A DNA stretch of 35,822 bases from [Mycobacterium] nativiensis (lineage in GTDB: Bacteria > Actinomycetota > Actinomycetes > Mycobacteriales > Mycobacteriaceae). Of the stretch, positions 12,869 through 27,611 are shown in pieces. Position 1 is the first letter of the stretch; each line of letters starts with the position of its first letter. The notes under the pieces are model-generated. The model saw only the letters and a program-made list of their open reading frames with translations. It ran no database searches and was not told where the DNA came from. Both the position numbers and the translations under genes were made by a program. Location of the stretch: the NCBI RefSeq assembly GCF_020172685.1, contig NZ_CP083986.1:2812270-2848091 (forward strand), written 5' to 3'.

Positions 12869-13821
<953 letters not shown>

Positions 13822-15099: not shown

Positions 15100-15223
15100 C
15101 TGTCCCACCTTGGGTCGTTCGCCGTCGGGAGCGCAGCGGTTACATGACGCCCGAGCAGCGGCTTGTAGTCAATTATGAACTACGCAGCTGGCCTGGTCGT
15201 AATTCCGCCCATCGCACCCGGGC

Positions 15224-15317
15224 CTCGACGTAGGAGAGGCGAAGCTGGGACCGCCGCATGAACCGAGCGGTTCAGCGGGCTCGACGTAGGCGAGGCGAAG
15301 CTGGGACCGCCGCATGA
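15224..15317. repeat. Two 38-bp direct repeats upstream of ribBA
   Basis: Positions 15224-15261 and 15280-15317 are the same 38-bp sequence with one mismatch (A15235/C15291), a period of 56 bp. Each unit contains GCGAAGCTGGGACCGCCGCA. Between them is a perfect dyad GAACCG-AG-CGGTTC at 15260-15273. They lie in the 288-bp gap between divergently transcribed ribBA and the DUF732 gene, which has no other coding potential. This resembles a short interspersed mycobacterial repeat; no known class is assigned. I see no FMN riboswitch core here. Confidence 0.7.
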
Positions 15318-15387: not shown

Positions 15388-15777
15388 ATGCCATCGAGAA
15401 CCGACCGTGCAGCCGTACGTCAGCGATGGATCGTGACACCGGTGGTCTCGTTGGCCACAGCTTTGACGGCGGTGATGTTCGCCGGGCCCGCACTCGCCGC
15501 CGGCGGCGACGACGACGAAGCGGGTTATCTGGACTACGTCCGCAGTCACGGCGTGCCGTACTCGAACCTAAACCCGGATGGCGTGCTCGGTTCGGGGTAC
15601 CACTACTGCTCCCTGATACACGAGGGGATGAGCCCACAACGCATCATCGACTCCGGCCGCGGCATCAGCCTGATCTGGATCCCGACAATGGTCTATGCGG
15701 CTCAGCACTTCCTGTGCCGGGACACCCTGACCGAGGCGGACCTGGCGGCTGAGGCAGAGCCCCAGCCCAGTCCCTAG
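15388..15777 (+). CDS. Secreted DUF732-type protein (host)
   Basis: The 129-residue protein has a Sec signal peptide with a hydrophobic core at about 15-34 and an ALA-A cleavage site near 38. The mature part has an early YLDYVRSHGVPYS segment and two cysteines (Cys74 in YHYCSLIHEG, Cys110 in AQHFLC), the spacing and context of the DUF732 family of small exported mycobacterial proteins. Its stop codon TAG shares the palindrome CTAG with the displaced ribE stop on the other strand. Before the element inserted, it and ribE were therefore convergent neighbours with interlocking stops. Function unknown. Confidence 0.75.
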   Translation: MPSRTDRAAVRQRWIVTPVVSLATALTAVMFAGPALAAGGDDDEAGYLDYVRSHGVPYSNLNPDGVLGSGYHYCSLIHEGMSPQRIIDSGRGISLIWIPTMVYAAQHFLCRDTLTEADLAAEAEPQPSP

Positions 15778-15811
15778 TCCCGAGCCAGCAACCGCTCCAC
15801 GTACTTGGCGA
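15774..15811 (-). repeat. Element att site, with the displaced original ribE 3' end
   Basis: Read on minus, this segment encodes AKYVERLLARD and a TAG stop. The present ribE ends AKYVERLLTRP and TAG. The two align without gaps at a constant offset of 11,800 bp. Identical blocks are AGCAACCGCTC (15787-15797) and TTGGCGA (15805-15811), with isolated third-position-type differences between. The codons here (AAG TAC GTG) are the GC-rich choices expected of the host, so I take this as the original chromosomal ribE end. The crossover probably lies in one of the two identical blocks. Confidence 0.88.
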
Positions 15812-15879
15812 ATAGCCGAGAGCTATGCGGTGTGCTGACCAGCACAAACGCAGGCCGGCACGCAGCGCTGTAGTCAGAA

Positions 15880-15885
15880 TATGTT
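15880..15885 (+). promoter_or_regulatory. Candidate promoter of the cargo operon
   Basis: TATGTT fits TANNNT, 45 bases before the ATG at 15931. Just upstream, TGTGCT-GACC-AGCACA (about 15831-15846) is a perfect dyad that could be an operator or the end of a readthrough barrier near the att site. A GGAG ribosome site precedes the ATG. Confidence 0.35.
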
Positions 15886-15930
15886 GAGCGCAGCTAATGC
15901 CCGACTCCGAACCGAACGAACGGAGTCACC

Positions 15931-16248
15931 ATGACCAGCACAATCACATCCACGACCAATGTTCCGCTGCCTGCCGGCACCACCTGGGACGGCGAGTGGT
16001 ACCAGGGATCGCGTGACTGCTACAGCCGTCGCCGCACCATCGAGGCCTCCGGCTGGATGCGCGACGACGTGAACGTCTTCATCCATGTGATCCAGCGGGC
16101 CAACGGCGAGATCGCGGAACGGGTGATCGTCCCGCCGGATCTGCACCCCGATTACCCGCTCACCTCGGAGCAGGCCCGCCAGATCGGCGAGGCGCTGATT
16201 TCCGTGGCCGACGAGTTCGACGCGCTGAACGAGGCGGTGGCGAAATGA
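15931..16248 (+). CDS. Cargo operon gene 1, unknown 105-residue protein
   Basis: I do not recognise a named family. The protein is soluble, has no signal peptide, and contains WDGEWYQGSRDCYSRRRT, a beta-rich DDVNVFIHVIQRANGE and a C-terminal helix LTSEQARQIGEALISVADE. A similar EQAR helix occurs in the plus-strand protein at 23.1 kb. It starts after ACGGAG and ends in an ATGA overlap with the next gene, so it is the first cistron of a three-gene plus-strand unit at the end of the element farthest from the integrase, a usual place for accessory cargo. Confidence 0.7.
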   Translation: MTSTITSTTNVPLPAGTTWDGEWYQGSRDCYSRRRTIEASGWMRDDVNVFIHVIQRANGEIAERVIVPPDLHPDYPLTSEQARQIGEALISVADEFDALNEAVAK

Positions 16249-16520
16249 CCGCCACTCACCACGACGTCGACGGCACCACCGACAAGCCCCTTATCCGGCG
16301 GCTCCGCTTCGCCGAGGACGCGCTTATGGCACTGCATTCCAACTTGCTGCGCGAGGCTGCGGAAACGCCGCTGGCCGACCAAGAACAGCACGGCGGGCTC
16401 TACGACGCGGCTACCCGCGTTCTACGTGCTGCTGACGAACTACGGTTTGTGCGGGTCGACGTGGCCGAGCTGGGCGAGCCCACTCAGTTGTCGGCCGGCG
16501 GGCACATGGTGCGGCCATGA
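16245..16520 (+). CDS. Cargo operon gene 2, unknown 91-residue protein
   Basis: Not recognised. A small, mostly helical, acidic-to-neutral protein: a helix around RRLRFAEDALMALHSNLLREAAE and a second around YDAATRVLRAADELRFVRVD. No membrane segment or signal peptide. It is joined to both neighbours by ATGA overlaps, which is the best evidence that it is a real gene. It could be a partner of gene 1 or gene 3, but nothing in the sequence decides this. Confidence 0.65.
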   Translation: MTATHHDVDGTTDKPLIRRLRFAEDALMALHSNLLREAAETPLADQEQHGGLYDAATRVLRAADELRFVRVDVAELGEPTQLSAGGHMVRP

Positions 16521-16759
16521 AGCGACTCGTCCTCACTGTCTTCATGGCGGTCGCGTTCATAGTTGCCCCGACGGCACACGCCGACCCGGCAGGCAACGCC
16601 ATCTGTCGGCTACTCGCGGCCGGGAATACACCCGAGGGACTGGAATCCTCGGTGACCGTGCGGCAAGTGCTCGGACCCGAAGCGACCAACGCTGATGCAC
16701 GGGTCTACATCCGCAGTGTGGTCGCGGGACAGTGTCCACAGTTCCTCTGGAGGTTCTGA
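16517..16759 (+). CDS. Cargo operon gene 3, small exported protein (DUF732-like)
   Basis: The 80-residue protein has a clear Sec signal peptide: Lys2-Arg3, a hydrophobic core at 4-18 and an AHA cleavage site at about 20-22. The mature part of about 58 residues has two cysteines (Cys30, Cys73) and a C-terminal CPQFLWRF. The spacing GNAICRLLAAG ... VVAGQCP resembles the second half of DUF732 proteins, like the host gene on the other side of the att site. It ends just before a strong terminator. An exported product at the cargo end of a phage element suggests lysogenic conversion or superinfection exclusion, but this is inference. Confidence 0.7.
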   Translation: MKRLVLTVFMAVAFIVAPTAHADPAGNAICRLLAAGNTPEGLESSVTVRQVLGPEATNADARVYIRSVVAGQCPQFLWRF

Positions 16760-16771
16760 CGGCCTGACGCG

Positions 16772-16811
16772 ACGAAGCCGGCCCCCAGCGCGATGCTGGG
16801 GGCCGTTTCGT
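16772..16811. terminator. Strong bidirectional terminator
   Basis: GGCCCCCAGC (16780-16789) and GCTGGGGGCC (16795-16804) form a perfect 10-bp stem with a 5-base loop. ACGAA (16772-16776) and TTCGT (16807-16811) can extend it after a small internal bulge. It sits between the convergent ends of the cargo operon and terL, so it can stop both. Confidence 0.85.
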
Positions 16812-16855
16812 TGGGGTCTCCCACTAGCCTTACACGTGTTAGTTAGCGGCCGGGG

Positions 16856-18265
16856 TCACAGGAAAAAGGCGTCGGGTCCGCCGTCGTCGTCCTTGACCGA
16901 CGACGCGCCGAGGAGGGCCAGCGTCCCGGCCACGACGGGGTGAATCTGCGCGGACGAGTCCCGCCGGTCCCAGCCCCAGCCCCCGGCGTCACCGATGGGC
17001 CGTTTCTGCGCACCCATCACCGCGTCGGTCAGTGAGCCCTGCCCGCGGTGGGTCAACGTGCCAGCCTTCAGCCGTGCCTCGAACAGTCCGCAGCCCTTGG
17101 CCATATCCCGTGCCGTGGACCGGTCGGCCTTGATGCTGCGCGACTTGAGCAGGGGGACCATCTGCGCGGCCGGCGATAGGTCATCGACAGTGATCGGCAT
17201 GTGCCGCTCGGCTACCCCGGCGATGCACTCGACCGCCAGTGACACATCGGCGCCTGCGAACAATTCCTCGAGGAACACCGTGCCGTCGTCACGGTTCCAG
17301 CATCCGACCACGGAGATGTCGAGCCCGTGTGACATGTCCACGCCGATGGCTGCTGGGGCCTCGTCGGCGGTCGGGCCAGCGGCGAGCAGGTCACGCCACG
17401 CGGCCTCGGTAATGATCGCGGGCTGACGTGCTGCGACCGGAGCCCACATCGACAGCCGCTCGGCGCGGAACTGGTCTTCGGGGAGAATCGCCCGGTCGTC
17501 GGTGATGGCCTGTAGCGGGACGCGACCGGCGGCTACGGCGGGGTTGACCCGCACCCACATGTCCTGGTCGTCAAGATCGTGGCCCCACTCGGCGCACCAC
17601 TCCCACCACGCCAGACGAGGGTTCAGGCCGTCGTGGGCGCTGGCGCGCATCGTCGCAAAGGCCAGCGCGTCGTGAGTTACCCCCGGTGCGGTACCGAAGT
17701 ACAGGGACTGCGCCCGGGGCCGGGAGAACACCGTGGGGGCCAACGCGCCGACCTCCGCAGCCGGTAGGTCTTCGGCCTCGTCCACGACGAGGCGGTCCAC
17801 CGATAGGCCGCGACCGGCTGAGGCCGAGCGGGTGTTGAACGCGATACGGGCGCCGGTGTCGAGCTCGACGTACTCCGCGCCGATCATCTGGGAGTGCCGA
17901 CGTACCCGGCCCGCGAGGTCACCGTGATCTTGGATGACCGACCACAGGCGCCGGAACGCATCCGATGAGGTCTTCACCGCGTGCGCGGTGTGAAGGATGT
18001 TCTCCCCCAGCTCGAACAGCCCGAACAGCTCGACGGCGAGCAGGATCTGACCCTTGCCGTTCTGCCGGGACACCACCAGGCCAGCCTGGGAAGCCGACCA
18101 TGCGCCGCTGGACTCGCGCAGCAGGCCGCGCACGATGTCGCGCTGCCACTCGTCCAGGGGCACACCGTAGGCCGCAGCGAGGTCCACACAGTCCTGCCCG
18201 GTGGTCTCGTCGCCGGCCGGGACGCGGGTGAACGTCGGCTCAGTCGTCACGGTCGCGGCCCGCAT
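16856..18265 (-). CDS. Phage terminase large subunit
   Basis: The ATPase-nuclease motor that cuts and pumps DNA into a prohead. In 469 residues it shows a variant Walker A SRQNGKGQ (66-73), Walker B LVVDEAED (159-166) and, in the nuclease half, the first acidic residue in AIGVDMSHG (Asp310). The AYGVPLDEWQRDIVRGLL lead-in is typical of actinobacteriophage TerL. It is on the short side but appears intact. Its ATG overlaps the small terminase stop as TAATG. It is the last minus-strand gene and nothing resembling a portal or capsid follows, where a full prophage would continue. Confidence 0.88.
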   Translation of the reverse strand: MRAATVTTEPTFTRVPAGDETTGQDCVDLAAAYGVPLDEWQRDIVRGLLRESSGAWSASQAGLVVSRQNGKGQILLAVELFGLFELGENILHTAHAVKTSSDAFRRLWSVIQDHGDLAGRVRRHSQMIGAEYVELDTGARIAFNTRSASAGRGLSVDRLVVDEAEDLPAAEVGALAPTVFSRPRAQSLYFGTAPGVTHDALAFATMRASAHDGLNPRLAWWEWCAEWGHDLDDQDMWVRVNPAVAAGRVPLQAITDDRAILPEDQFRAERLSMWAPVAARQPAIITEAAWRDLLAAGPTADEAPAAIGVDMSHGLDISVVGCWNRDDGTVFLEELFAGADVSLAVECIAGVAERHMPITVDDLSPAAQMVPLLKSRSIKADRSTARDMAKGCGLFEARLKAGTLTHRGQGSLTDAVMGAQKRPIGDAGGWGWDRRDSSAQIHPVVAGTLALLGASSVKDDDGGPDAFFL

Positions 18266-18483
18266 TACGCACCCCGTGAGCGACGACGAGCAGCGATCTC
18301 GTCCAGCTTCGATGTCCCCGCCGCTGGGGCGGTCGCGGCCAGCGTCGCGATGGTCTGGCGGTACTCCCGGGACACCGCAGCGAGGTCACGGGGCGTCGTC
18401 TCGGAGTCGGTCAGCACGGCCTCCAGGTGGTCGCGCAGGGCCTCCAGGCGGGCACGGTCGGTGCCCAGATCATGCATATTCAT
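18265..18483 (-). CDS. Probable terminase small subunit
   Basis: The 72-residue protein is an alpha-helical segment DRARLEALRDHLEAVLTD ... DLAAVSREYRQTIATLAAT followed by a basic tail DEIAARRRSRGA. This repeat of helix, Leu/Ala-rich helix and Arg-rich tail is what I know from short small terminases directly upstream of TerL in mycobacteriophages. It overlaps terL by one base and lies between HNH and terL, the usual HNH-TerS-TerL order. The start at 18483 is fixed by a full AAGGAGGT six bases upstream; a second ATG lies two codons downstream. Confidence 0.7.
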   Translation of the reverse strand: MNMHDLGTDRARLEALRDHLEAVLTDSETTPRDLAAVSREYRQTIATLAATAPAAGTSKLDEIAARRRSRGA

Positions 18484-18682
18484 GCATCCACCTCCTTGGG
18501 ATATTCGGGGCTCCAGAGATTTCCTTAAGCCACGAGCCGGAACGCGGGTGACCGACCTGGGTCACCCCCCACCATGCAGGGCCCTGACCTGTGGATATGC
18601 GACCGAATATGGGTCTGCATGCCTCCGACCTGCGGTTATGGCATGGAGTCTGGCATGCGATGGTGTGCATAGTCATGCGTGG
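18484..18682. other. Candidate cos or packaging-recognition region
   Basis: A 199-bp non-coding gap between HNH and terS, in an otherwise packed element. It contains a perfect 8-bp dyad GGGTGACC-GACCTG-GGTCACCC (18546-18567), an inverted pair ATATTCGG (18501-18508) and CCGAATAT (18603-18610), and repeated ATGC-containing words on both sides of the terS start. In cos phages of this type the cos site lies beside HNH and TerS. The assignment is by position and symmetry only. Confidence 0.4.
18490..18497 (-). promoter_or_regulatory. Full-length Shine-Dalgarno before terS
   Basis: AAGGAGGT on minus, six bases before the ATG at 18483. It is the strongest ribosome site seen in the element, so the terS-terL pair has its own efficient initiation rather than coupling to HNH. 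Confidence 0.8.
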
Positions 18683-19099
18683 TCACCACCAGCACCGCGC
18701 GGTCTCGAAGCTGATGCCTGGGCGCGGGTCGTGTACGCCGTTGCATCGGGCGCAGTGCTGGCCGGCGGGCGCGCAGGACGGTGGCACTGGGCGCTTGCGG
18801 ATAGGTGGCTTAGGAGTGAGGGTGACGCCGTATCGGGCGGCGGCAGCGATGGCGATGGTGTCGATGGTGACGCCGCGCTGCCTGTTACATCCGCGGTGCG
18901 CGCTCGCGACGTTGTCGGGGTCGTACTCGGGGCCGCCGTTGGCCACCTGCCATAAGTGATCCATCTGGAATGACGCCGGGTCGAGGTGGTGGGCGCCGTA
19001 CGCAATCGGCTTGCCGCACAGGTGACAAGGCCGCCCTTGGGCTCGCAGCGCAGCGCGTAGGCGCTTGGCCTTGATGTCGTTGACGCGGGGCATCCTCAC
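18683..19099 (-). CDS. HNH endonuclease
   Basis: A 138-residue protein with a zinc-bound HNH fold: CHLC (Cys25, Cys28), the core FQMDHL (Asp47, His48), Asn63 in PDNVASAH, His68 and Cys71 in HRGCN. A second cysteine pair near the C-terminus (CAPAGQHCARC, 109-119) may bind another metal. HNH proteins next to terminases assist cos cleavage in HK97-like phages. The start is the GTG at 19099, with AGGAGG six bases before it; the later ATG at 19093 is worse spaced. It is followed by the candidate cos region and terS. Confidence 0.85.
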   Translation of the reverse strand: MRMPRVNDIKAKRLRAALRAQGRPCHLCGKPIAYGAHHLDPASFQMDHLWQVANGGPEYDPDNVASAHRGCNRQRGVTIDTIAIAAAARYGVTLTPKPPIRKRPVPPSCAPAGQHCARCNGVHDPRPGISFETARCWW

Positions 19100-19260
19100 G
19101 CTTTGCCTCCTGCTCTCTGTGGTGCGGGCCGGGGCGACGACCATGCCAGGAGTAGGCCGTCGCCCCGACTCGCCAACGCGGCCGGGTCAACGAGGCCGGT
19201 CGCGCTGCCTACCCGCGCCTGTGGCTGCAGGGCAAGTCGGTGGGTAGTTGTGGTCATCGG
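19100..19260. terminator. Gene-free gap with a large inverted repeat
   Basis: GGGGCGACG (19131-19139) and CGTCGCCCC (19158-19166) form a perfect 9-bp stem with an 18-base loop, between the tail-protein stop and the HNH ribosome site. It could attenuate transcription between the tail and packaging genes. No open frame of note. Confidence 0.35.
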
Positions 19261-21036
19261 TCAATACAAATCATTCGACCCGAACAGCGTGCCGACTGCG
19301 TTCCACATGGTTTGGATAGTGCGCACCGCTTGGCCTAGTGGGTCTTCCATATCCCCGCCGGTGCCGATGGTGATGTCGAACGTCTTCGGGGTGTCCTCGT
19401 CGTAGTGCATGCGGATCGCTGAGCACTGGTCGGTGTAGAGCAGCCCGTCAATCTCGAATAGGCAGCGTGTGCCGAGGTCGAAGTCGTAAAAGATGTTGTA
19501 CGGGCGGCGATTCCAGATGGAGACGCGGAAGGATTGGTAAGGCCTCGTTTTCCAATGTCCTTGGCGCGTACACAATGCGGCGCTGATCGTGTACGCCGTC
19601 CCGCCGCCCTCTTGGGTGAAGTACTCGAGGTAACCCATGTCACCCGCGGCGATCTCGCGCAACGGGTCCGTGTAGCGCATGAACGCCAGGAGCATGTTGT
19701 CGAACTGGCCCTGGTAAATCTCCTCCAGGCCGGAGCCGACCGGGGCAGGTCCGGTGTTTTCGCCCAGGCCGTAGGCGTGGACTACCTGAAACTGGCTCAG
19801 CCCGTACTTGATTCCGAACGTCTGCAACTGGTTAACCCAGCCGGGGCTCTTCCCGCCCACCAGAATCGACTTCGCTTTGCTCTTGAAGATCGCCCGCTCG
19901 GATGTCTTGATAGGCGACTGTTCCAGCGAGTCCCGGAACACGATGCTGGGCAGCTTCGGTGCGATGCCCAGCATGTCCCGGACATACGGTGGGGCGTTCT
20001 GGTTCGTGCGCGGGTCGATGGCGTCGGCGTCATTGAACGAATACAGCAACTCAGAGATCAGGTCATCGGCGGTGGTGGCCACAAGGTTGACCGCGCCATC
20101 AATGGCGGTACCCGTCAGGCCGACGACACCCGAAGCGTCCTCGACGGCAAGGATGATGCAGTTGCGGCCGGGACGCGCGGCTTCTTCACCGATCAGCGCG
20201 GCCAGCTCGGGGTGCGGGGAATCCTCATCCTCGGTCAGCCACGTGTAGGCGCGCACATTGCAGCCGGCGTCCTTGAGCATGCCCTGGCAAGTGTCGTGGG
20301 CGGGCGACCAGCGGGTGGCGATCACCGAGAACCTGCTGGTGTCGGTAAACGGGTTGACGAACTGCATCTGGATGGGCCAGTTCAGCGGCGACCACAACGA
20401 CGCATCCGACAAGGGTTTGAGCCACGCGCCGGGGTTCACGAAGTTGTCGATGACCCCCAGTGGTGGCCAGAAGATGCGAGCCAGGTTCAGGAAGCCGGTG
20501 GCCGACACGATGGTGCGCGTGTTGCCTGGCAGCACCCACGCCTTGATGGGCTGAAACTCCGGCGGCATGAACGGTGTCGCCGCGAAATAGAGATGCTTCC
20601 AGTGCTCCCGGTTCTCGGCGACATCGAAGTGCAGCTCATGCAGACCGGCCTCTGTGCGCACATTGCGGACGGCGGTGACCTTGCCGCCCCACCGCCACCG
20701 CCAATTCCGATTGTTCGGGTACGGGTCGATGGTGATGTTCAGGTCGTCATTGCTGCGGACATCGGTGCGTAGGAAACGGTTGATCCAGTCGGAGCCGCGC
20801 AAGACGATTGAGCCAGTGCCGGTCTCGTGCAATTGCGTTTGAACATCCACCGACTTTTCACCGGCGATTTGGCCGATGAAGTCCATGTTTCGATCCCACA
20901 GTCGGATCAGCGGCCGGGCCTTCGATTCAGCGTCCTTGACCAGGCGCTTGGCGTTCGCGTACCGGTAGGCGGAGATTGGGGCCGTAAGCGGGTTCGGGAC
21001 GCCGTTCTCGCCGACGCGAGGGACCTTGATTGCCAC
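19261..21036 (-). CDS. Minor tail protein, Siphovirus Gp37-like
   Basis: A 591-residue protein beginning MAIKVPRVGENGVPNP, with an N-terminal region (RPLIRLWDRNMDFIGQIAGE, GSIVLRGSDWINRFL) and repeated tryptophan-rich blocks (NRNWRWRWGGKV) that I recognise from the tail-tip protein downstream of the tape measure in mycobacteriophages, the ReqiPepy6 Gp37-like family. In phages it sits at the distal tail, near the baseplate. Length is that of the full phage protein, with no frameshift. It starts at a GTG three bases after the preceding stop. It is the only recognisable tail structural gene in the element, which is odd for both a prophage and a typical satellite. Confidence 0.8.
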   Translation of the reverse strand: MAIKVPRVGENGVPNPLTAPISAYRYANAKRLVKDAESKARPLIRLWDRNMDFIGQIAGEKSVDVQTQLHETGTGSIVLRGSDWINRFLRTDVRSNDDLNITIDPYPNNRNWRWRWGGKVTAVRNVRTEAGLHELHFDVAENREHWKHLYFAATPFMPPEFQPIKAWVLPGNTRTIVSATGFLNLARIFWPPLGVIDNFVNPGAWLKPLSDASLWSPLNWPIQMQFVNPFTDTSRFSVIATRWSPAHDTCQGMLKDAGCNVRAYTWLTEDEDSPHPELAALIGEEAARPGRNCIILAVEDASGVVGLTGTAIDGAVNLVATTADDLISELLYSFNDADAIDPRTNQNAPPYVRDMLGIAPKLPSIVFRDSLEQSPIKTSERAIFKSKAKSILVGGKSPGWVNQLQTFGIKYGLSQFQVVHAYGLGENTGPAPVGSGLEEIYQGQFDNMLLAFMRYTDPLREIAAGDMGYLEYFTQEGGGTAYTISAALCTRQGHWKTRPYQSFRVSIWNRRPYNIFYDFDLGTRCLFEIDGLLYTDQCSAIRMHYDEDTPKTFDITIGTGGDMEDPLGQAVRTIQTMWNAVGTLFGSNDLY

Positions 21037-21039
21037 GAC

Positions 21040-21828
21040 TTACCCCGTCTTCACCACGCCGTGGGTGCGGGCATAGTCGGCTGCCTCCCGTTCGAGGTGG
21101 GCTTGCCGGATCTCGTCGAGCAGCGCTGCCGCCGCGCTTGGGAGCTGAAGCGCCAATGAACCGGGCGCATGGTGCCAGCGTCCACCGCGAGGTCCGCCGC
21201 TGCCATTGGCGAGGGTTAGCACCCTGAGCGCCGCGGGGTAGTTGTCGGCGGTAGCGCAGTACATCAGACTGTGCCGCAGGTTCATCCGATGCATCCACGG
21301 CTCGCGCTGACCAAGCACTTCAAAGTCACCAACCAGCAGATCCACTACGACATCGACGGCATCGAGCACCCGACGGGCTTCGGCGAGCGCCTGCCATGCC
21401 GCTGGACCCTCGGGATGCTGTAGAGCCTGTTCGGCGCTGGTGCCAGCGTCGACAACCTCGGCAGCCTTGGCCATCTTCTCGGCGGCGGCATGATGGGCCG
21501 GTTGCAGCGTCCGGACCAACTTGTCGGCATCGGCCGTGACCAAGGAAAAGGCGCGGCGCGCCAACTGATGCAGCGATGTCGACGTGATGTCGGCGGGCGT
21601 TCGATTGGGCTGAATCAGCGCGTCGGCCATCACCTGGTGCGCATTCTCGGCGGTCATTTCGCCCCGGCTGATAATCCCGGCCAGATCGGTCGGGTCTGGC
21701 GCGTCCCACGCTTTCACGGCATCGCGAACTTTGACGACATCGGCAACCGATGCCGGGATCTTGCCGCCCGCTTGCGTGGTGGCGGCGATGAGACGGTCCA
21801 CCGTTTGCCAATTCGGCATCACGCTCAT
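21040..21828 (-). CDS. Unknown 262-residue helical protein beside the tail gene
   Basis: Not recognised. The sequence is almost entirely helical by composition, with runs such as HQLARRAFSLVTADADKLV and AAEKMAKAAEVVDAG, and a C-terminal segment LPSAAAALLDEIRQAHLERE. No signal peptide, membrane helix or enzyme motif. The start at 21828 is set by GGAGGGG seven bases upstream and a 2-base gap after the previous stop. Its place directly before the tail protein suggests a structural, assembly or helper-interference role, such as scaffold or tail chaperone; the sequence does not decide. Confidence 0.65.
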   Translation of the reverse strand: MSVMPNWQTVDRLIAATTQAGGKIPASVADVVKVRDAVKAWDAPDPTDLAGIISRGEMTAENAHQVMADALIQPNRTPADITSTSLHQLARRAFSLVTADADKLVRTLQPAHHAAAEKMAKAAEVVDAGTSAEQALQHPEGPAAWQALAEARRVLDAVDVVVDLLVGDFEVLGQREPWMHRMNLRHSLMYCATADNYPAALRVLTLANGSGGPRGGRWHHAPGSLALQLPSAAAALLDEIRQAHLEREAADYARTHGVVKTG

Positions 21829-21830
21829 TA

Positions 21831-22151
21831 CTACCCCTCCTGCCGCTGGTAGCCCCACGAAGCCGGGTACGGGGCGCTGCTGTATCGCTCGTGGTCGCGC
21901 TTCTGCTGTTCGGTCGGCTCGCTCGGTATCCGCACCGGGGGCCGGTCGGCCTGGGGCTGTACAGGCTCCGGAACTGCCGGCTGCTCGCCGGGAGGCCGCA
22001 CCCGCTGCACAAGCTCGGCGAACTGATCCGCCCCGAGGCTGGAAAGCGTTTGCTCCACGGCCGCCGCGATCAGGCCAGCGACCCCCTCGGTGGTGGGTGT
22101 CGCGGGTTCGATGGTCGGCTCGACCGTCTCCTGTGGCGGTATCTCACTCAT
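21831..22151 (-). CDS. Unknown 106-residue proline/glutamate-rich protein
   Basis: Not recognised. A disordered, acidic, proline-rich N-terminus (ETVEPTIEPATPTTE), one short hydrophobic helix (VAGLIAAAVEQTLSSLGADQFAELVQ), a second proline-rich linker, and a C-terminal tail with aromatic residues (RYSSAPYPASWGYQ). Small, disordered proteins with a single helix are common among phage scaffolds and size-redirecting factors, but this is only an analogy. The ATG at 22151 overlaps the previous stop as ATGAGTGA, the same eight-base junction seen between the 22.9-kb and 22.75-kb genes. Confidence 0.6.
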   Translation of the reverse strand: MSEIPPQETVEPTIEPATPTTEGVAGLIAAAVEQTLSSLGADQFAELVQRVRPPGEQPAVPEPVQPQADRPPVRIPSEPTEQQKRDHERYSSAPYPASWGYQRQEG

Positions 22152-22479
22152 CACTGGGCTCCTTTCGTGCTTGCGCGTATTCGATGACGGCCGCCATGTT
22201 GAACGTCCAGCGTCCTGCCACCTGGTGACCGTCTAGGTCGGTGGCGATTCGGCTGATATGGCGCCGAGTGCAGCCGATCAGCTTTGCCGCCTGAGCGCTT
22301 CCGATCCGCTCCGGTTCTGAGTCTGACTGAGCAACATCCGGTTCCGGTCCCCGTGAGGACAACGCGCAGGCCAGGGCAGTTAGCTGTGGTGGCAGTGGCT
22401 GGCCGGTGAGTCGTCGCCGTCGGATGACTTCGGCTACGGCGTACCTCGCGACGGCCGTTTGTTCATCTGTCAGATTCAC
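22144..22479 (-). CDS. Helix-turn-helix DNA-binding protein
   Basis: A 111-residue protein. The C-terminal half (about 59-105) is a winged-helix/excisionase-type domain: IGSAQAAKLIGCTRRHISRIATDL, then a short hairpin with GRWTFNMAAVIEYAQ. The N-terminal half is a separate helical segment with an RRRR patch. It could be a regulator, an excisionase or a DNA-recognition subunit. It lies far from int, so excisionase is not the obvious choice. The start is the GTG at 22479, with a GTGA overlap with the previous gene. Confidence 0.65.
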   Translation of the reverse strand: MNLTDEQTAVARYAVAEVIRRRRLTGQPLPPQLTALACALSSRGPEPDVAQSDSEPERIGSAQAAKLIGCTRRHISRIATDLDGHQVAGRWTFNMAAVIEYAQARKEPSDE

Positions 22480-22754
22480 GGCTGTTCGATCACGACCAGT
22501 TCGGCGTCGGGGTATTCCTGGGCACACCAGTAACCCAAAACCGCCACCAGGCCCTCACACCCATGCGCTCCAGCCTCTTTCGTGCGCCTCGCACCGGCCT
22601 GCTGCCAGGATTTGGGGTATTCCATGCCCAGCTGGATCTCCGAATCAGGAACCCCGAATAGCAGGGATAGGCCGGCGGGGCACAAGTGCAGGTCGCCGGT
22701 CTCGGTGATGACGGCGCGGACGATGATCCGCTGCGGCGCTTGATCCTCACTCAT
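22476..22754 (-). CDS. LLFGVP-family small protein, copy A
   Basis: A 92-residue protein of unknown function that is clearly related to the one at 23417-23722. Shared features in order: LLFGVP (31-36), P-x-x-W-x-x-x-G-x-R-R-T (Pro47, Trp50, Gly54, Arg56-Arg57-Thr58), GxxxLxAxLxYW (Tyr75-Trp76), and a closing AE-V-V ... EQ. The conserved WxxxGxRRT and YW blocks suggest a small DNA- or protein-binding fold. It starts at 22754 inside the end of the upstream gene (ATGAGTGA overlap) and ends in a GTGA overlap with the HTH gene. Confidence 0.65.
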   Translation of the reverse strand: MSEDQAPQRIIVRAVITETGDLHLCPAGLSLLFGVPDSEIQLGMEYPKSWQQAGARRTKEAGAHGCEGLVAVLGYWCAQEYPDAELVVIEQP

Positions 22755-22929
22755 CAACCTCACCCCCGATCGCAGCGTCGTAGGCCGCGACGGCTGCGCG
22801 CAGGTGCTCAATCCTGACGCGCTGGCCGTCGACCTCGATCCCGTATCCGTTCCGTTTGTCGAACGCCAGCACGAAGGGGCCGGCGACATCCACGACGATG
22901 CGGCGGGGTTCCGCGGTGTCGGCGCTCAT
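22747..22929 (-). CDS. Unknown 60-residue protein
   Basis: A small protein with a beta-rich centre (RRIVVDVAGPFVLAFDKRNGYGIEVDGQRVRIEHL) and a terminal helix. No family recognised. It begins this minus-strand block, about 150 bases from a divergent plus-strand gene. The ATG at 22929 is my choice; an upstream GTG at 22989 would add 20 residues of arginine/cysteine-rich sequence with no better ribosome site. Its end overlaps copy A of the LLFGVP family by eight bases. Confidence 0.55.
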   Translation of the reverse strand: MSADTAEPRRIVVDVAGPFVLAFDKRNGYGIEVDGQRVRIEHLRAAVAAYDAAIGGEVDE

Positions 22930-23075
22930 CGGATGCCGCCGTTCGTGGCACCCGACGGCCGCGGCGATCCCGCGGCACGTCGGGCCCACGCCCTACGCTG
23001 CAACTGCCAGAGCGCCGCAAGGAAGAGCGCTCCGGCCGCATAACGGGTGGCAGCCCGTGCAACCGTAAGGAGACT
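22930..23075. promoter_or_regulatory. Divergent intergenic region inside the element
   Basis: This 146-bp gap is the only divergent junction in the element: minus-strand genes go left to the packaging module and one plus-strand gene goes right. No good TANNNT pair is evident, though CATAAC lies at about 23039-23044. The plus gene has a strong AAGGAG (23067-23072). A switch between early and late expression could sit here, but this is inferred from layout. Confidence 0.3.
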
Positions 23076-23336
23076 GTGACGACTATGGAGTTCGTGTCCG
23101 GCGACCAGCCCGCAACTCACGTTTTGCACTACGCCGGTCAATCGATCGGGCTCTTCCCTGAACAGGCCAGGGGGGTTGCCAAGGCGATCCACGCCGCAAC
23201 TAACGGGACGACCAACATGATTCAGGCTGGAATCACCGACTACGCCAGCGGCGCGACAGTGCAACACGTCCTTCTCATAGGCCCCGGCATTCCCGCGCTG
23301 CTGGTCGGTCCTCCGGTCGACCTTGACCGCCAGTAG
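23076..23336 (+). CDS. Lone plus-strand unknown protein in the middle of the element
   Basis: An 86-residue protein starting at GTG 23076, with AAGGAG three bases upstream. It reads as a compact mixed fold: THVLHYAGQSIGLFPEQARGVAKAIHAATNG then a beta-rich QHVLLIGPGIPALLVGPP. No HTH, signal or membrane segment. Every other gene from 16.9 to 27.5 kb is on minus, so this one may be under separate, perhaps lysogenic, control. Its EQAR helix resembles that of the first cargo gene. Function unknown; the strong ribosome site is the main reason to accept it over the opposing frame. Confidence 0.6.
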   Translation: MTTMEFVSGDQPATHVLHYAGQSIGLFPEQARGVAKAIHAATNGTTNMIQAGITDYASGATVQHVLLIGPGIPALLVGPPVDLDRQ

Positions 23337-23416
23337 CTCCTGCACCGCGCTGGCAGTGAATAATTCCACGGTAGCGCTGACAGGCGGGATAGCCGAATGC
23401 ACCGGGTTCCGGCGGT

Positions 23417-23722
23417 TCACTGCTCGGACTCGCTGTCGCTGAAGACAACTTCGGCACCCAGATCACGTCTGGCCCAGTAGGCCAGGATGGCGAATAGCTC
23501 GCGGGAGCCGGTGGCGGCGGCTGCCTCTGACGTCCGCCGTCGCCCCGCGCGCAGCCACTCGGGCGGCATGGCAACCGCGGTCAGGCCGGTGGTATCGGCC
23601 AAGGCGGCGCCCAGGTGGGAGGCGACGGTTTCCGCGGGGACACCGAACAGCAGTGCCATCGCGTCGGTAGACATCATCGGTTCACCGTTGACGTTGCGGG
23701 TCAGTTCGATTGGGGCTGTCAT
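23417..23722 (-). CDS. LLFGVP-family small protein, copy B
   Basis: A 101-residue paralogue of the protein at 22476-22754. It has LLFGVP (24-29), P-x-x-W-x-x-x-G-x-R-R-x-T (Pro54, Trp56, Gly60, Arg62-Arg63-Thr64), YW (82-83) and AEVVFSDSESEQ at the end, with an extra loop of about ten residues after LLFGVP. The start at 23722 is preceded by the purine-rich AAAGAAAG. It begins within the last 41 bases of the WhiB-like gene in another frame. The duplication within a small element suggests two versions of one regulatory or binding function. Confidence 0.65.
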   Translation of the reverse strand: MTAPIELTRNVNGEPMMSTDAMALLFGVPAETVASHLGAALADTTGLTAVAMPPEWLRAGRRRTSEAAAATGSRELFAILAYWARRDLGAEVVFSDSESEQ

Positions 23723-24008
23723 GGGCGTGTCTTTCTTTTTTTCTTTTTCCGGACGGGGGTGGTTGGTAGTGCGCGGCCCAGACGCCAGGAGGTGGTCGGC
23801 GCGGGTGAGTGCGAGCTATCCAGGCGGCGCACTGGTTTACAACCGGGCATCGTCCGCAGATCGCCACGGCCTGATCAGCGGCGAGCTTGTCGCCATCGGC
23901 AGCACGGTCGAACAACTCGGCGCGCTGCCGGCAGGCGGCATCCGGCAGGTATGGCACGTCGGCCAGGGCGGCAATCAGCAGCCGCACCGCGCCCTCGTGG
24001 TCAATCAC
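23682..24008 (-). CDS. WhiB-like iron-sulfur transcription factor
   Basis: A 108-residue protein with the four WhiB cysteines in order: Cys26 (DAACRQ), then Cys51-x2-Cys54-x5-Cys60 (AICGRCPVVNQC), which would bind a 4Fe-4S cluster. It is followed by the turn GVWAAH (75-80), a variant of the usual G[VI]WGG. A basic tail SGKRKKERH may contact DNA. The GTG at 24008 gives a GTGA overlap with the DUF3631 stop. Phage WhiB proteins, for example in mycobacteriophage TM4, down-regulate host whiB genes and affect superinfection; the same could hold here. The gene is small but has all key residues. Confidence 0.85.
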   Translation of the reverse strand: MIDHEGAVRLLIAALADVPYLPDAACRQRAELFDRAADGDKLAADQAVAICGRCPVVNQCAAWIARTHPRRPPPGVWAAHYQPPPSGKRKKERHAHDSPNRTDPQRQR

Positions 24009-25390
24009 CGAGCGGCCCCGCCGGAGTAGTAGCACTCCATGCACTGACCAGACTTAATAGAGTCCTCGAGGACCAGCTTCGTGCCGCAGCCGCAGATGGT
24101 GGGACGCGATTTATCCGCTACATCTGCGCCAATTTCACCCGGTTCTGTAGCGGGTGTAGCGGATGTAGCGGATGCGTCAGGTAGGTACCGCGACCACGCA
24201 TCAACAAACTGGGCCTTGGTGTAACCGCGCAGCCCGCGTTCCCCCGCATGCAGTTTGGACCCGATGCCGTACTTGCTGAGCCGCTGGGATAGTCCCCGAC
24301 TGTCGAGCGGCTCTCCGCGCCGAATAGTCGGCCACGGCGATTCGTCCATTTGATTCAGATCGGACAGCAGTTGCTCAGTGGTGAACTGATCAGCTGCGGC
24401 CCTGGTGAATATCTGCCGAATGTCGCGCAGCAGCAGGACGCCCACACTGGGGGCTCGGTCCTTGGATGCCGCTACAAGCGCTACAGCCGCACCACGTGCC
24501 AGCTCTGGCCAGTGCCCGCCGGCCAGGTCGGCCACCGCCAGCAGTGCCTCCCACACGTCAGCGTCACGGTCAGTGACCTGTTCGGGAATGTCGGGCCAGA
24601 AATCACCGGCCAGACGTGCGACGACAGATTTGGACCCGGACCACGTTGCCAGCCTGTCCCGTAGCGCGTGAGCCTCGGGATGGTTGACGCGAGGCCGCCA
24701 CGGCTCGACATGCTCATCAGGTGCTCGCCGACGCATCCGCACCACCACCGAGCGGGTCATGATCGTGTCCGGTAGATCGTCCAAGCCAGCCAAGGACACG
24801 GCGCAGTAGGCCGGAAGCTCTTCGGTCTCAACGATCTTGCCGCGCATGACGCAACGACCAGCCATCGCGCCTTTACGGTGGCCGGCGTTGAGCATGCCGC
24901 GGATGTCCTCGTTGTCTTTGGCTTTCGGTCCGAACACCGTGTCGACCTCGTCGAACAAGATGGTTGGGCGCCCGTCCTCGTCGGACACCTTGCGGAAGAG
25001 GTAAGCCGGGGTGGTGTTGACGGCGTGGACCGGCCTGGGTACCAAGGGCTCGGTGACCTCCAACGCTCTCGACTTACCGGAGCCTGGCTCGGGCGAGAGA
25101 AACGCCAGTCGCGGCGTCGACTCCCAATGGTCCATCAGCCAGGCATGAGCAATCCACAACACGTGAGCTACAAGGGCATGACGGGTCGGATAGGCGACGA
25201 ACCGGGCCAGGAACCCTTGCACGTCGTCCAACAACGCCGCCCCCACGGCGGGCGACGCATCCGCTACATCCGCTACACCCGCTACAGAACTGCCTTGGCC
25301 TGATTCCAGATCAGGCCATCCAGACCCGTTGTGCGGCAGGTACGTCCCGGCCTCGGCCAGCTCGCGGCCGCGAGCGATATCGTCGGTCAT
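24005..25390 (-). CDS. DUF3631 P-loop replication protein (primase/helicase-like)
   Basis: A 461-residue protein. The ATPase core has Walker A SPEPGSGKS (99-107) and Walker B ILFDEVD (144-150), followed by DUF3631 blocks (KGAMAGRCV, LDDLPDTIMTRSVVVRMRRR). A C-terminal winged region (SQRLSKYGIGSKLHAGERGLRGYTKAQF) precedes a zinc-ribbon-like end (Cys433, Cys435, Cys450, Cys453). Homologues occur in phiRv1/phiRv2 and actinobacterial phages as presumed replication initiators. The low-complexity stretches SVAGVADVADAS (35-46) and DASATSATPATEP (405-417) are the two readings of one 37-bp DNA repeat in opposite orientation, so the DNA rather than the peptide appears to be selected. ATGA overlap with the preceding gene. 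Confidence 0.82.
   Translation of the reverse strand: MTDDIARGRELAEAGTYLPHNGSGWPDLESGQGSSVAGVADVADASPAVGAALLDDVQGFLARFVAYPTRHALVAHVLWIAHAWLMDHWESTPRLAFLSPEPGSGKSRALEVTEPLVPRPVHAVNTTPAYLFRKVSDEDGRPTILFDEVDTVFGPKAKDNEDIRGMLNAGHRKGAMAGRCVMRGKIVETEELPAYCAVSLAGLDDLPDTIMTRSVVVRMRRRAPDEHVEPWRPRVNHPEAHALRDRLATWSGSKSVVARLAGDFWPDIPEQVTDRDADVWEALLAVADLAGGHWPELARGAAVALVAASKDRAPSVGVLLLRDIRQIFTRAAADQFTTEQLLSDLNQMDESPWPTIRRGEPLDSRGLSQRLSKYGIGSKLHAGERGLRGYTKAQFVDAWSRYLPDASATSATPATEPGEIGADVADKSRPTICGCGTKLVLEDSIKSGQCMECYYSGGAAR
24113..24178. repeat. Iteron-like cluster, right-facing array plus opposed unit
   Basis: 24142-24178 holds three tandem 9-mers of type TGTAGCGGR followed by TGCGTC. At 24113-24124 an opposed unit reads ATCCGCTACATC. 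The 20-odd bases between them are AT-richer than the surroundings. This gives a dyad arrangement like replication-initiator binding sites flanking a melting region. It lies in the 3' end of the DUF3631 gene. Confidence 0.7.
25254..25290. repeat. Iteron-like array, perfect inverted copy
   Basis: These 37 bp are the exact reverse complement of 24142-24178, again three 9-mers. They lie in the 5' end of the same gene, about 1.1 kb away. A perfect 37-bp match over coding DNA read in opposite directions is hard to explain by protein constraint. Confidence 0.85.
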
Positions 25391-25557
25391 GCGTTCACCC
25401 CCGCCCGCTGGCGGCAGACCGGGCCACGTCCTGCGATCAGGCTGAGTGGGTGACTGATCGGTCGGTGGCAGTCTTCACAGCGGCAATTAGCCGTTTCAAA
25501 CTGCTCGGCGGGGGCGCCGTCCTGGTCGCCCTTCGCGATCTGGGATCGCAATGTCAT
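25387..25557 (-). CDS. Small zinc-finger-like protein, DUF6011 type
   Basis: A 56-residue protein ending in CRCEDCHRPISHPLSLIAGR and GPVCRQR. The pattern C-x-C-x-x-C-x-R-P-(I/L) ... S ... G-x-GPVCR is that of the DUF6011 family, common in actinophages and thought to bind zinc. It starts at the ATG at 25557, overlapping the previous stop as ATGA, and ends in an ATGA overlap with DUF3631. Probably a partner or accessory of the replication gene, judging from coupling only. Confidence 0.65.
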   Translation of the reverse strand: MTLRSQIAKGDQDGAPAEQFETANCRCEDCHRPISHPLSLIAGRGPVCRQRAGVNA

Positions 25558-25847
25558 CGCAACCCCTCCAATACCTCGGCGGGGATGATGGGCCGGAACC
25601 CGGCTGCGGTCAGATGTGCCACGGTGCGCTGCCAGGCATCGGCCTGGTGCTCCGTGATCGGCAACTCGTCGTAATGCCATGGATCTGCTCGACCAGAATC
25701 GAGGATCGCCAGCCGCCGGGATGCGGCGCGACGACGCTTTTTCGCGCTAAGCTCGGAGCACGACGTGGTGTTCGTGGCGGGTGCCGGTTCCTGGGCGGGG
25801 GCCGGCATTTCGCATTCCGGCGGGCCTCCGGGCGGTGTTGTGGGCAT
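25554..25847 (-). CDS. Unknown 97-residue phage-type protein
   Basis: A proline-rich N-terminus (about 25 residues), a basic segment KKRRRAASRRLAILDSGRADPW and a C-terminal helical part EHQADAWQRTVAHLTAAGF. No known domain. It overlaps the upstream gene as TGATG and the downstream gene as ATGA, so it belongs to the early operon leading to DUF3631. The basic region would suit nucleic-acid binding. Confidence 0.65.
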   Translation of the reverse strand: MPTTPPGGPPECEMPAPAQEPAPATNTTSCSELSAKKRRRAASRRLAILDSGRADPWHYDELPITEHQADAWQRTVAHLTAAGFRPIIPAEVLEGLR

Positions 25848-26137
25848 CAGGCACCACCCGATCTACGCGCACGACGTGCGGTAGCTGACTTGAATGCCAG
25901 GCGAGCGAAGTACGCCTTGCGGGCGCTATCGGCACGCTTGGTGCGTTCCTCGGGCGACAGAACCCGGTCAGGGTCGACCTCGTCATCGAAACGCTCGTTG
26001 AACTTGGCGCGTGCATTGCGGGTGCGCGCGGTGCGATCCTCGGTGTTTGCCCAGGACGTATGCGCGCCGATTTGAGCACGGAGTATGCGTTCGGATTCGG
26101 TAATCAACAGACGGCCTTCTATTCGAAGGCCCGTCAA
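25847..26137 (-). CDS. Unknown 96-residue basic protein, early operon
   Basis: A highly charged helical protein: ESERILRAQIGAHTSWANTEDRTART, then ARAKFNERFDDEVDPDRVLSPEERTKRADSARKAYFARLA. I recall this AHxSWANTxDRTART and VDPD-VL-PEER pattern from small conserved genes in mycobacterial prophages, with no assigned function. It starts at a TTG (26137), with AAGGGG about six bases upstream. It is the first gene of the operon that runs into DUF3631. Confidence 0.65.
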   Translation of the reverse strand: MTGLRIEGRLLITESERILRAQIGAHTSWANTEDRTARTRNARAKFNERFDDEVDPDRVLSPEERTKRADSARKAYFARLAFKSATARRARRSGGA

Positions 26138-26224
26138 GACCTACCCCTTAGGGGCGTACATCCCGGTGATGGAGTCGTAGCCGGGATGGGCGACTTGGCA
26201 CAGTGTACGGAATGCGGTGTGCTC
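26138..26224 (-). promoter_or_regulatory. Candidate early-operon promoter and operator
   Basis: The minus strand has TACACT (26207-26202), a TANNNT match, about 65 bases before the TTG. Downstream of it, in the would-be leader, CATCCCGG (26159-26166) and CCGGGATG (26181-26188) form a perfect 8-bp dyad. It may be a regulator site or an attenuator. No classic -35. Confidence 0.35.
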
Positions 26225-26599
26225 TCAGTCCGTTAACCGATACTCGGCGTGTCCGTTGAGCGCTGCGGCAGCAAGTTCGGAGGACAGCACGAAGAAATTG
26301 AAGCTGCCGGAATAACTGCACCGCTTGTTCATGCAGCGGAGTCTCACGTTGTAGCTCTTTGACGGTTCATGCAGCGCCATTTCAAATCCATGATGCCCCT
26401 CACTGAGGTTGCCTACGTACTCTTTTCGAGGGCCTCGAGGATGCATTCGGATTGGGTCTTTTTCCGGCTCTCCGTCGTTGTATTCGTAGACGTATAGCCC
26501 GATGTGAGCGATGAAGTGCCCCCGCGGGCAGAGCACTCGAATGTCCTTGGGATTTCCTCGCATTCGGTCTCGAAGAGCGTGCGCAGTTGCTTCGTTCAC
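26225..26599 (-). CDS. Unknown 124-residue protein coupled to the integrase
   Basis: Two cysteine-containing blocks, VLCPRGHFIAHIG near the N-terminus and LRCMNKRCSYSG toward the C-terminus, could form a zinc ribbon; the rest is polar. No family named. It begins at a GTG that overlaps the integrase stop as GTGA, so it is made with the integrase. It could act as a recombination directionality factor or as cargo. Its codons are less GC-rich than those of the neighbours (for example near 26440-26500), a sign of foreign origin. Confidence 0.65.
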   Translation of the reverse strand: MNEATAHALRDRMRGNPKDIRVLCPRGHFIAHIGLYVYEYNDGEPEKDPIRMHPRGPRKEYVGNLSEGHHGFEMALHEPSKSYNVRLRCMNKRCSYSGSFNFFVLSSELAAAALNGHAEYRLTD

Positions 26600-27498
26600 A
26601 GCTCTCCCAAGTTCAACCCACGAGCCTCAGTGGCGGCACGCTCCGCGGCCGACGCCGTGGTGTAGCGATCCAACATGGACCGGCTTGACCAGCCGGCCAC
26701 CGCCATCAGCCCCTGCTCAGAACCCCCCGCACGCAGCCACCGCGTTGCGGCAGTAGACCGCAGCAGGTGAATGTGAAACCCGGTAATACCAGCACGTTCC
26801 GCGCGGACTTTGAGCGCCCGATCGAGCCCGTGATAGCCGAGGCCCTGGCCGTTGCCACCGAGCCACATCACCGGGCCGTCGGCGAGCCGGTGACCGCGCC
26901 GCAGCCGTAGGTAGCGATCCACCGCGGCAGCCGCCTGCGGCCCAAAAGGCACGACACGCCCCTTGCCGCCTTTTCCGCGCCGTACCACTGCGATCCCCCG
27001 CGACAAGTCGATGTCGTCAGGCAGGGCCATGCCGAGCAGCTCCCCCGCCCTCACGCCCGTTTCCCCCATGAACCGGACGACCGCTTCGTCGCGCCGGTCG
27101 ATGAAGTCCTTGCCGACGCAGGCCTTGATCAGTGCCTTGAGCTGGTCGTCGGTGAGCGCCTGCGTGACCTTATCGTCCAGCTTGGGCGGGTCCAGGCCGG
27201 CCAATGGGTCCGACTCAAGCTCGCCTTCATCAACCAGCCACTTCGTGAAACGGCGCATGGACTGATAGCGGCTTCGCGCTGTAGCGGCCGCGGCACCGCC
27301 GGCCAACAGGTCGGCGGTGAACGCCTGCATGTTCGTCCGGGTGATCTCTTGCGCAGTGCCGCTGGCCTCACACCAGCGCAGGAACGCCAGCACGCCCTCC
27401 CTGTACGCGGCGACGGTGGCTTCAGACCTGCGCGCAGCGCGCAGTGACAGCCGCCAGGAGTCGAGCAGCTCGCGCAAATCCAGCAAAGACTCATCCAT
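26596..27498 (-). CDS. int: Tyrosine-recombinase integrase
   Basis: The 300-residue protein has an N-terminal SAM-like core-binding domain (about 8-95) and a C-terminal catalytic domain with Arg150 (TGVRAGELLG), Lys179 in the GKGGKGR turn, His244-x-x-Arg247 (HLLR), Trp270 in the usual His/Trp position (AGWSS) and the nucleophile Tyr279 (LDRYT). It is XerC/D-like in size, with no obvious arm-binding domain. It lies 75 bp from the ribE stop, next to the att site, as expected. The ATG at 27498 is used. The gap 27499-27573 is AT-richer and may hold integrase sites. Confidence 0.93.
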   Translation of the reverse strand: MDESLLDLRELLDSWRLSLRAARRSEATVAAYREGVLAFLRWCEASGTAQEITRTNMQAFTADLLAGGAAAATARSRYQSMRRFTKWLVDEGELESDPLAGLDPPKLDDKVTQALTDDQLKALIKACVGKDFIDRRDEAVVRFMGETGVRAGELLGMALPDDIDLSRGIAVVRRGKGGKGRVVPFGPQAAAAVDRYLRLRRGHRLADGPVMWLGGNGQGLGYHGLDRALKVRAERAGITGFHIHLLRSTAATRWLRAGGSEQGLMAVAGWSSRSMLDRYTTASAAERAATEARGLNLGEL

Positions 27499-27573
27499 GC
27501 CGAATATCTTGACATGTAACGGTGTACTTATGTGCTAACCTCGCCGTGACGGGCAAAACCGCACGTCAAACCA

Positions 27574-27611
27574 CTAGGGTCGGGTAAGCAACCGCTCAAC
27601 ATATTTGGCGA
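27574..27611 (-). repeat. Element att site inside the present ribE 3' end
   Basis: The partner of 15774-15811 at an 11,800-bp offset. It shares AGCAACCGCTC and TTGGCGA and supplies codons AAA TAT GTT, unusually AT-rich for this chromosome, before the TAG. I infer that this part came with the element and repairs the gene it enters. Confidence 0.85.

Follow-up and report, generated by a model that had tools for sequence, protein, structure and literature searches.

What sort of mobile element would carry the genes to package DNA and a gene for the tip of a tail, and have no recognisable gene for a head? The question is raised by an 11.8-kb insert between ribBA and ribC (both named by eye) in [Mycobacterium] nativiensis, at positions 15787-27611 of the stretch of 35,822 nucleotides analysed here, which we call the window and which is part of a 5.28-Mb mycobacterial chromosome in one contig. 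The original prediction took the insert for a mycobacterial phage satellite that brings its own HNH-TerS-TerL set and a tail-tip protein, and this is supported by a TerL clade of 11 elements in which no head gene was found. From the comparison of genes and relatives we consider that the element is probably a phage satellite, integrated in the chromosome and belonging to a distinct lineage of actinobacterial satellites; it would have private packaging, borrow heads and most of the tail, and place its own baseplate hub in chimeric tails. We hold it very likely that the element is a satellite, one that has a terminase of its own and lacks a recognisable head. Entry into chimeric tails appears to be the most likely function of the hub, a reading that we favour with less assurance. 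Related elements in other actinobacteria suggest that its design recurs and that it is not a broken phage.

Terminase genes and the lack of recognisable head genes

The predicted gene set of integrase, DUF3631 protein, WhiB, helix-turn-helix (HTH) protein, Gp37-like protein, HNH endonuclease, TerS and TerL was confirmed by Pfam and PHROGs together with the sequence (Table 1). On the minus strand, read from the ribC side, the order is integrase, small open reading frames (ORFs), DUF3631, WhiB, small ORFs, HTH and proteins of 107 and 262 amino acids (aa) of no assigned function, followed by the Gp37-like protein, HNH, TerS and TerL, and then by a short plus-strand operon. This arrangement had been described as a tight minus-strand series. 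The main genes do lie on that strand, but the plus-strand operon (15931-16759, including a DUF732-like gene) occupies the left end of the element, and approximately 200 bp of non-coding DNA holding a conserved motif separates HNH from TerS.

Portal, capsid, protease, tape measure and lysis families were found by neither Pfam nor PHROGs in the element ORFs scanned, as had been claimed. By sequence families the genes for a complete virion are lacking, and the 11.8-kb insert is a discrete integrated element of satellite size with an integrase and attachment (att) sites; both features are characteristic of satellites. A capsid or scaffold identity was considered for the 262-aa protein and rejected, there being no match in Pfam, PHROGs or PADLOC and nothing better than E 0.43 among PDB sequences; its profile also gave no match to phage scaffold and MuF-like sets. 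Its relatives P0002-P0005 share 43-59% identity with it, and relatives occur in M. sinensis and Gordonia rubripertincta. Its place is taken in other elements by proteins of about 190-290 aa, and of the sets compared there only the L069 protein is clearly homologous (hhalign E 1.5e-7).

A TerL alignment search at E 1e-60, run on 396 genomes from the genus and 397 from the order, matched 20 and 15 of them respectively; five are shared, so that 30 distinct genomes were obtained, 29 of which were fetched and 26 gene-called. We read 13 of these as capsid-less elements and, by gene order and size after TerL, another 13 as phages or prophages; the other four are G117, G752 and G455, which were among those fetched, and G532. 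Genes in the relatives were called with a simple codon-score caller that misses or misplaces some small ORFs and leaves gaps (e.g. in L146), so "none found" in a relative is weaker than "absent". A maximum-likelihood tree was made from the TerLs of 14 satellites and of 16 phages or prophages. Eleven of the satellite TerLs form one clade with support 100/100 and a stem of 0.79, and under midpoint rooting all 16 phage and prophage TerLs lie outside it, as do three further satellite TerLs (L148, L072 and L073). The clade spans mycobacteria, Nakamurella and one closed metagenomic circle. Its members are the window element, L063 (M. senuensis), L068, L069, L070, L071, L146, L147, L179/L184 (an IMG/VR metagenomic contig), L198 and L199; the last is from Nakamurella flava, to judge by a flanking host protein that is 100% identical, and L198 has the same genus code.

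Neither a portal nor a capsid was found in any of the 11 clade elements. A PHROG scan covered 107 proteins that had no other assignment, taken from 13 elements (all but one of the clade members, plus L072, L073 and L148), and no head or tail family was present among the best 25 of its 56 PHROG families; by table order, each of the remaining 31 has a single member with a score of about 1e-9 or weaker. Ten further L184 proteins gave no head or tail PHROG family either. L184 is a contig of 15,316 bases whose first and last 127 bases are identical, so that its ends can be joined into a 15,189-base circle; on it lie TerS, TerL, a DUF3631 relative, a tape measure and an integrase that by eye is of the serine type. 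The 127-base overlap equals what we take to be a common assembler word length, so it indicates a circular or tandem template and not physical end repeats.

The original prediction had named close relatives with a full capsid and tail module at this locus as the sign of a deleted prophage, and no such relative was found, the TerL-clade kin being compact elements themselves. A decaying prophage of this kind would have lost its head, lysis and most tail genes and retained integrase, replication, terminase and one tail gene by chance. The att flanks and phage-like genes would fit this, as would the presence of both the terminase and a hub homologue in the late region of phage Fionnbharth and the broken tape measure of the sister element L198. 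However, two genera and one metagenomic circle share this reduced set, whose TerLs form a separate clade, the gene order is unlike that of phages in having the hub beside HNH-Ter, one sister is a closed circle, and elements with mapped ends are 9-14 kb long and occupy different integration sites. The Hub, TerL, DUF3631 and HNH frames compared are all open, with ratios of nonsynonymous to synonymous substitution (dN/dS) well below 1. A defective prophage should also resemble an intact phage in sequence and gene order with pieces missing. Among 50,697 phage records all 1,692 TerL matches are below 60%, the best of the 30 listed being about 40%, and the best listed phage hub match is 60%. Given the TerL clade, the repeated reduced design and the open reading frames, we rejected a deleted prophage as highly improbable.

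The conserved motif between HNH and TerS, GGCnTAnGGAnnnnTCTGGAG (21 bases), is read as a candidate cos or terminase-binding site. Allowing at most two mismatches, it occurs exactly once, upstream of TerS, in 10 of the 11 TerL-clade elements, and a three-mismatch version was seen by eye in L198; it is present without mismatch in 6 of 14 satellites. A further 23 loci, 17 of them from phages or prophages and containing TerL and six lacking TerL, gave one match, away from the place upstream of TerS, and first-order shuffles gave 0.027 per locus. GCATGA was also tried as a cos-like word and rejected since it shows no excess (19 found against 22.5 expected).

The baseplate hub and the likely helper

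By sequence, the Gp37-like protein is a baseplate hub encoded by a complete gene. Residues 31-582 of 591 match PDB 9d93 "Baseplate hub, gp25" with E 2.6e-37, which bears out the predicted tail-tip protein and makes its identity more precise. The hub is full length in all seven elements compared, with 80-92% identity among them and to the hub of prophage L061, and neither these seven nor the one prophage included has an interrupted frame, with dN/dS of 0.07-0.15 over 28 pairs. In a tree made by a quick method without bootstrap, the satellites interleave in one clade with two prophages, L061 from M. kumamotonensis and L172 probably from M. heraklionensis (by likeness to P0016), and this clade lies far from the sequenced M. 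smegmatis phages. The interleaving suggests that satellites and a group of helpers have exchanged hub genes, and it also means that dN/dS by itself is no proof of selection within satellites.

Within the TerL clade the hub is found in three of the 11 elements (window, L063 and L068) and a tape measure in three (L184, 951 aa, phrog_2337 2.5e-75; L199, 1,229 aa; and L198, whose copy is interrupted by an insertion, transposon-like by eye), and the two were found together in none. L064 has a hub and stops at a contig edge. The hub is also found in three capsid-type satellites, L062, L065 and L066, where it adjoins the capsid (phrog_10 in all three, PF05065 in L065). Terminase genes were found in these neither by tblastn with the window TerS and TerL nor among 10 unassigned proteins, and the capsid of one capsid-type satellite gave no match in the phage records.

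In mycobacteriophages studied by cryo-electron microscopy the hub trimer is described as closing the tail channel and gating release of the tape measure (PMC13252515, PMC13033339), and in phage Douge the C-terminus of the tape measure sits in the inner chamber of the hub (PMC13033339). The satellite lineage, over mycobacteria and Nakamurella, may own a packaging motor and its DNA site without a head, and supply a hub or a tape measure so that stolen heads join tails whose trigger or ruler it controls; we hold the chances of this general scheme to be about even. A helper phage would induce the element, which would excise and replicate, the DUF3631 protein perhaps acting at inverted 9-bp repeats. 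The element's own terminase would then cut its own cos-like site and dock on the helper portal, and satellite DNA would fill helper heads. The helper would give the tube, the chaperones and most of the baseplate, with the satellite hub replacing the helper hub to form a chimeric tail, and sister elements would reach the same end through the tape measure protein.

Satellites often damage their helper, and the hub could instead be an interference protein or a passenger, an excess of which poisons or titrates helper tail assembly without being built into satellite particles. Such a role would suit an element carrying only one tail gene, hub fragments do occur elsewhere in the genus (e.g. G022, G130 and G180), and a tail-targeting defence, Rta, is described in the satellite PLE11 (PMC12987554). 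Yet the hub is kept at full length and constrained in every one of the seven elements compared, and the PLE11 satellite hub is reported in particles (PMC12987554), so that we regard interference as unlikely.

The helpers are likely to be prophages of the L061/L172 kind, judging from hubs that are 85-87% identical to the element hub over the part aligned. One such prophage record, G421 (L172 and L185-L187; 58 kb), has portal-, capsid- and tail-like genes and a hub 86-87% identical over the part aligned, and its TerL is only 38% identical to the satellite TerL. The element's own genome contains no second hub or TerL match. It does contain two more satellite-like, capsid-bearing elements on the same chromosome: L159, with capsid, TerS, Ad1 and Hc1, and L160, with a capsid, at a tRNA-Gly (ccc) gene, the same type of site as that of the hub-TerL satellite L063 in M. 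senuensis. It could be imagined that capsid-type satellites in the same cell, besides the helper, supply heads to terminase-type satellites, and the two co-resident elements, the lack of a PF05133 or PF04860 portal in the genome and the shared hub in L062, L065 and L066 would agree with that. The capsid-type elements examined showed no portal, though, and co-residence may be chance, with no sign of matched specificity; we consider such three-part sharing quite improbable.

Several points weigh against a satellite that fills borrowed heads and builds its hub into chimeric tails. The 262-aa protein may yet belong to the head and have diverged too far to be recognised, the low dN/dS of the hub may stem from its time in phages before it was captured, and the docking of a satellite TerL on a helper portal is without explanation. 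The own genome has no PF05133 or PF04860 portal, by models not checked on L061/L172-type portals, so the helper would lie outside this genome or have another portal type. No tail gene was found in five of the 11 clade members (L069, L070, L071, L146 and L147) and no att repeat was found for L068 or L147. Satellites L148, L072 and L073 are without GGCnTAnGGAnnnnTCTGGAG, and its consensus was drawn from the same sequences on which it is tested, which makes position and uniqueness the better evidence for it.

Unusual forms of the hub gene occur elsewhere. At L082 9503-11778 (G022) four successive C-terminal hub fragments, 86-92% identical to the window hub, alternate with DUF732 genes beside two prophage tail genes, in what looks like a cassette array or a decayed duplication. 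Hub proteins P0030, P0033, P0037 and P0047 are about 850-880 aa long with an added PF08237 domain, which we take to be PE-PPE. A prophage hub gene is enlarged in frame to about 920 aa in P0016 and at L172 9995-12766, and the P0016 hub contains a LAGLIDADG homing-endonuclease domain (PF14528).

Relation to known satellites

Most of what is known about satellites concerns the redirection of helper heads and packaging. Those of the Staphylococcus aureus pathogenicity island (SaPI) type, among the phage-inducible chromosomal islands (PICIs), share an integrase, a regulator and a replication gene with the element, and some have their own packaging specificity through TerS. SaPIs use the helper TerL, unlike the element, which has its own TerL, HNH and tail hub. 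The cf-PICIs (capsid-forming PICIs) come closer, as these are described as having their own HNH, TerS and TerL and needing a helper tail, but they also encode capsid, protease, portal and connectors (PMC10690885), none of which was found in the element proteins scanned.

Among actinobacterial satellites, MulchRoom and MiniFlayer (Streptomyces) likewise have their own terminase, while their description gives them portal, capsid, scaffold and direct terminal repeats and no recognised primase (PMC10690885). Mycobacterial candidate PICIs, including phiRv1 and phiRv2, are similar in being mycobacterial satellites, some with a terminase, and were defined by an integrase plus a major capsid protein (PMC10654092). 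As that definition requires a capsid, a capsid-less class falls outside it; the element has no capsid, and the PF05065 matches of its own genome lie at two other places.

The nearest parallel for the tail is PLE11, a member of the phage-inducible chromosomal island-like elements (PLEs), which builds chimeric tails with its own tape measure protein (TMP) and hub, and PLEs are called the first such satellite family in a 2026 report (PMC12987554). Both there and in the reading proposed here, a satellite hub and/or tape measure replaces that of the helper in chimeric tails and heads are stolen. The host and helper are unrelated, being Vibrio cholerae and the contractile ICP1, and PLE11 carries TMP, TAC and hub together, in contrast to one tail gene per element in the lineage studied here. 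The element also differs in having its own HNH-TerS-TerL, the PLE set being compared by description. Genes for tmp are noted in some cf-PICIs as well (PMC12987554, Extended Data Fig. 10 legend). The gene combination had been called unfamiliar; this holds in that no report of capsid-less satellites with their own TerL was seen in the titles and first abstract lines of the open-access papers listed, which did not cover bioRxiv, but a satellite-encoded hub had already been reported in PLE11. The element and its relatives point to a second case of chimeric tails, in a distant phylum and paired with a headless packaging motor. It thereby becomes possible to test for what reason satellites carry parts of the tail initiator, and in what way a foreign terminase makes use of a helper portal.

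Borders, replication region and smaller features

The two att copies are identical at 22 of 25 bases, 11 of which form one exact run, and both encode AKYVERLL, the end of ribC. The duplicated flanks of the original prediction thus exist as two ribC 3' ends, although the duplication is imperfect. The left copy would be the native ribC 3' end, displaced through integration, and the right copy that supplied by the element. In all 10 relatives compared the ribBA-ribC spacing is about 0.1-1.3 kb without an element insert. Beyond the left copy, at 15388-15777, there is a DUF732 gene that seems to be part of the host lineage and not of the element.

Table 1. Features of the element, with positions in the window
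Feature	Position	Strand	Sequence or evidence
Left att copy	15787-15811		AGCAACCGCTCCACGTACTTGGCGA; reads as ribC C-terminus; empty sites in relatives
105-aa ORF	15931-16248	+	relatives in L062, L065, L068, L069, L146; same cluster in L184
91-aa ORF	16245-16520	+	no family match
DUF732-like small protein	16517-16759	+	PF05305 6.5e-4, below cut-off
TerL	16856-18265	-	phrog_9 4.8e-57; no Pfam match
TerS	18265-18483	-	phrog_1459 1.5e-5
Conserved motif GGCnTAnGGAnnnnTCTGGAG, candidate cos/terminase site	18511-18531	-	between HNH and TerS
HNH endonuclease	18683-19093/19144	-	PF01844 3.7e-5; phrog_338 1.4e-20
Gp37-like protein, baseplate hub by sequence match, 591 aa	19261-21036	-	PF14594 3.8e-37; phrog_110 9.5e-183
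262-aa protein	21040-21828	-	no Pfam, PHROG or PADLOC match
107-aa protein	21831-22154	-	no family
HTH protein, possible excisionase/regulator	22144-22527	-	phrog_66 0.0016; 46% relative in L069
92-aa protein	22476-22754	-	tblastn 78% L063, 52% L064, 46% L068
Small protein, 60 to 80 aa depending on start	22747-22929	-	no family
101-aa protein	23417-23722	-	no family; weakly related proteins in L063, L184
WhiB-like regulator	23682-24044	-	PF02467 4.1e-7
DUF3631 protein, putative replication helicase/initiator	24005-25390	-	PF12307 6.9e-59
Three 9-bp repeats, iteron-like, near DUF3631 gene 3' end	24145-24171		similar arrays in L068, L065
Three 9-bp repeats, inverted orientation, near DUF3631 gene 5' end	25257-25283		
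DUF6011 protein, overlaps 97-aa ORF	25387-25680	-	PF19474 2.4e-6
97-aa ORF	25554-25847	-	tblastn relatives in L062, L065, L066, L068, L071
96-aa ORF	25847-26137	-	phrog_2842 3.2e-14, a family without function
124-aa ORF	26225-26599	-	no family match
Integrase, 300 aa, tyrosine type by eye	26596-27498	-	phrog_1 8.5e-46
Right att copy	27587-27611		AGCAACCGCTCAACATATTTGGCGA; ribC 3' end

The DUF3631 protein, a putative replication helicase or initiator, is 75% identical to that of L068 and 81% to that of L065. The 9-bp repeat unit within its gene is TGTAGCGGA-like, and a 37-nt perfect inverted repeat with 1,075 nt between its arms spans the two window arrays. L068 has a 30-nt pair, inverted and 90% matching, with 1,088 nt between the arms (12991-13020 and 14109-14138), and L065 has the repeat triplet at one end only (7699-7725); an inverted pair at the same setting was not found in L062, L063, L065 or L066. 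The inverted 9-bp repeats could be a candidate two-part replication origin inside the replication gene. PADLOC gave no match to defence cargo among 10 element proteins, and tRNA and Rfam scans of the window were also without a match.

Other elements have flanking repeats at tRNA genes, of 47 bp for L145 (the L063 element), 43 bp for L148, 26 bp for L065, 22 bp for L066 and 39 bp for L160. The att search for L069-L071 gave matches of only 12-16 bp, and the stretch fetched for L068 yielded no integrase. At L147 16017-18905 a serine-recombinase-like stretch was called within a single frame of 962 aa whose start resembles ComM by eye, which may be an integration into a ComM-like gene or a calling error. 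Upstream of ribBA, a 41-nt repeat occurs in two copies within window 15221-15317, with a start-to-start spacing of 56 bp, and similar copies are present at many places in the own genome and also in G022 and G016.

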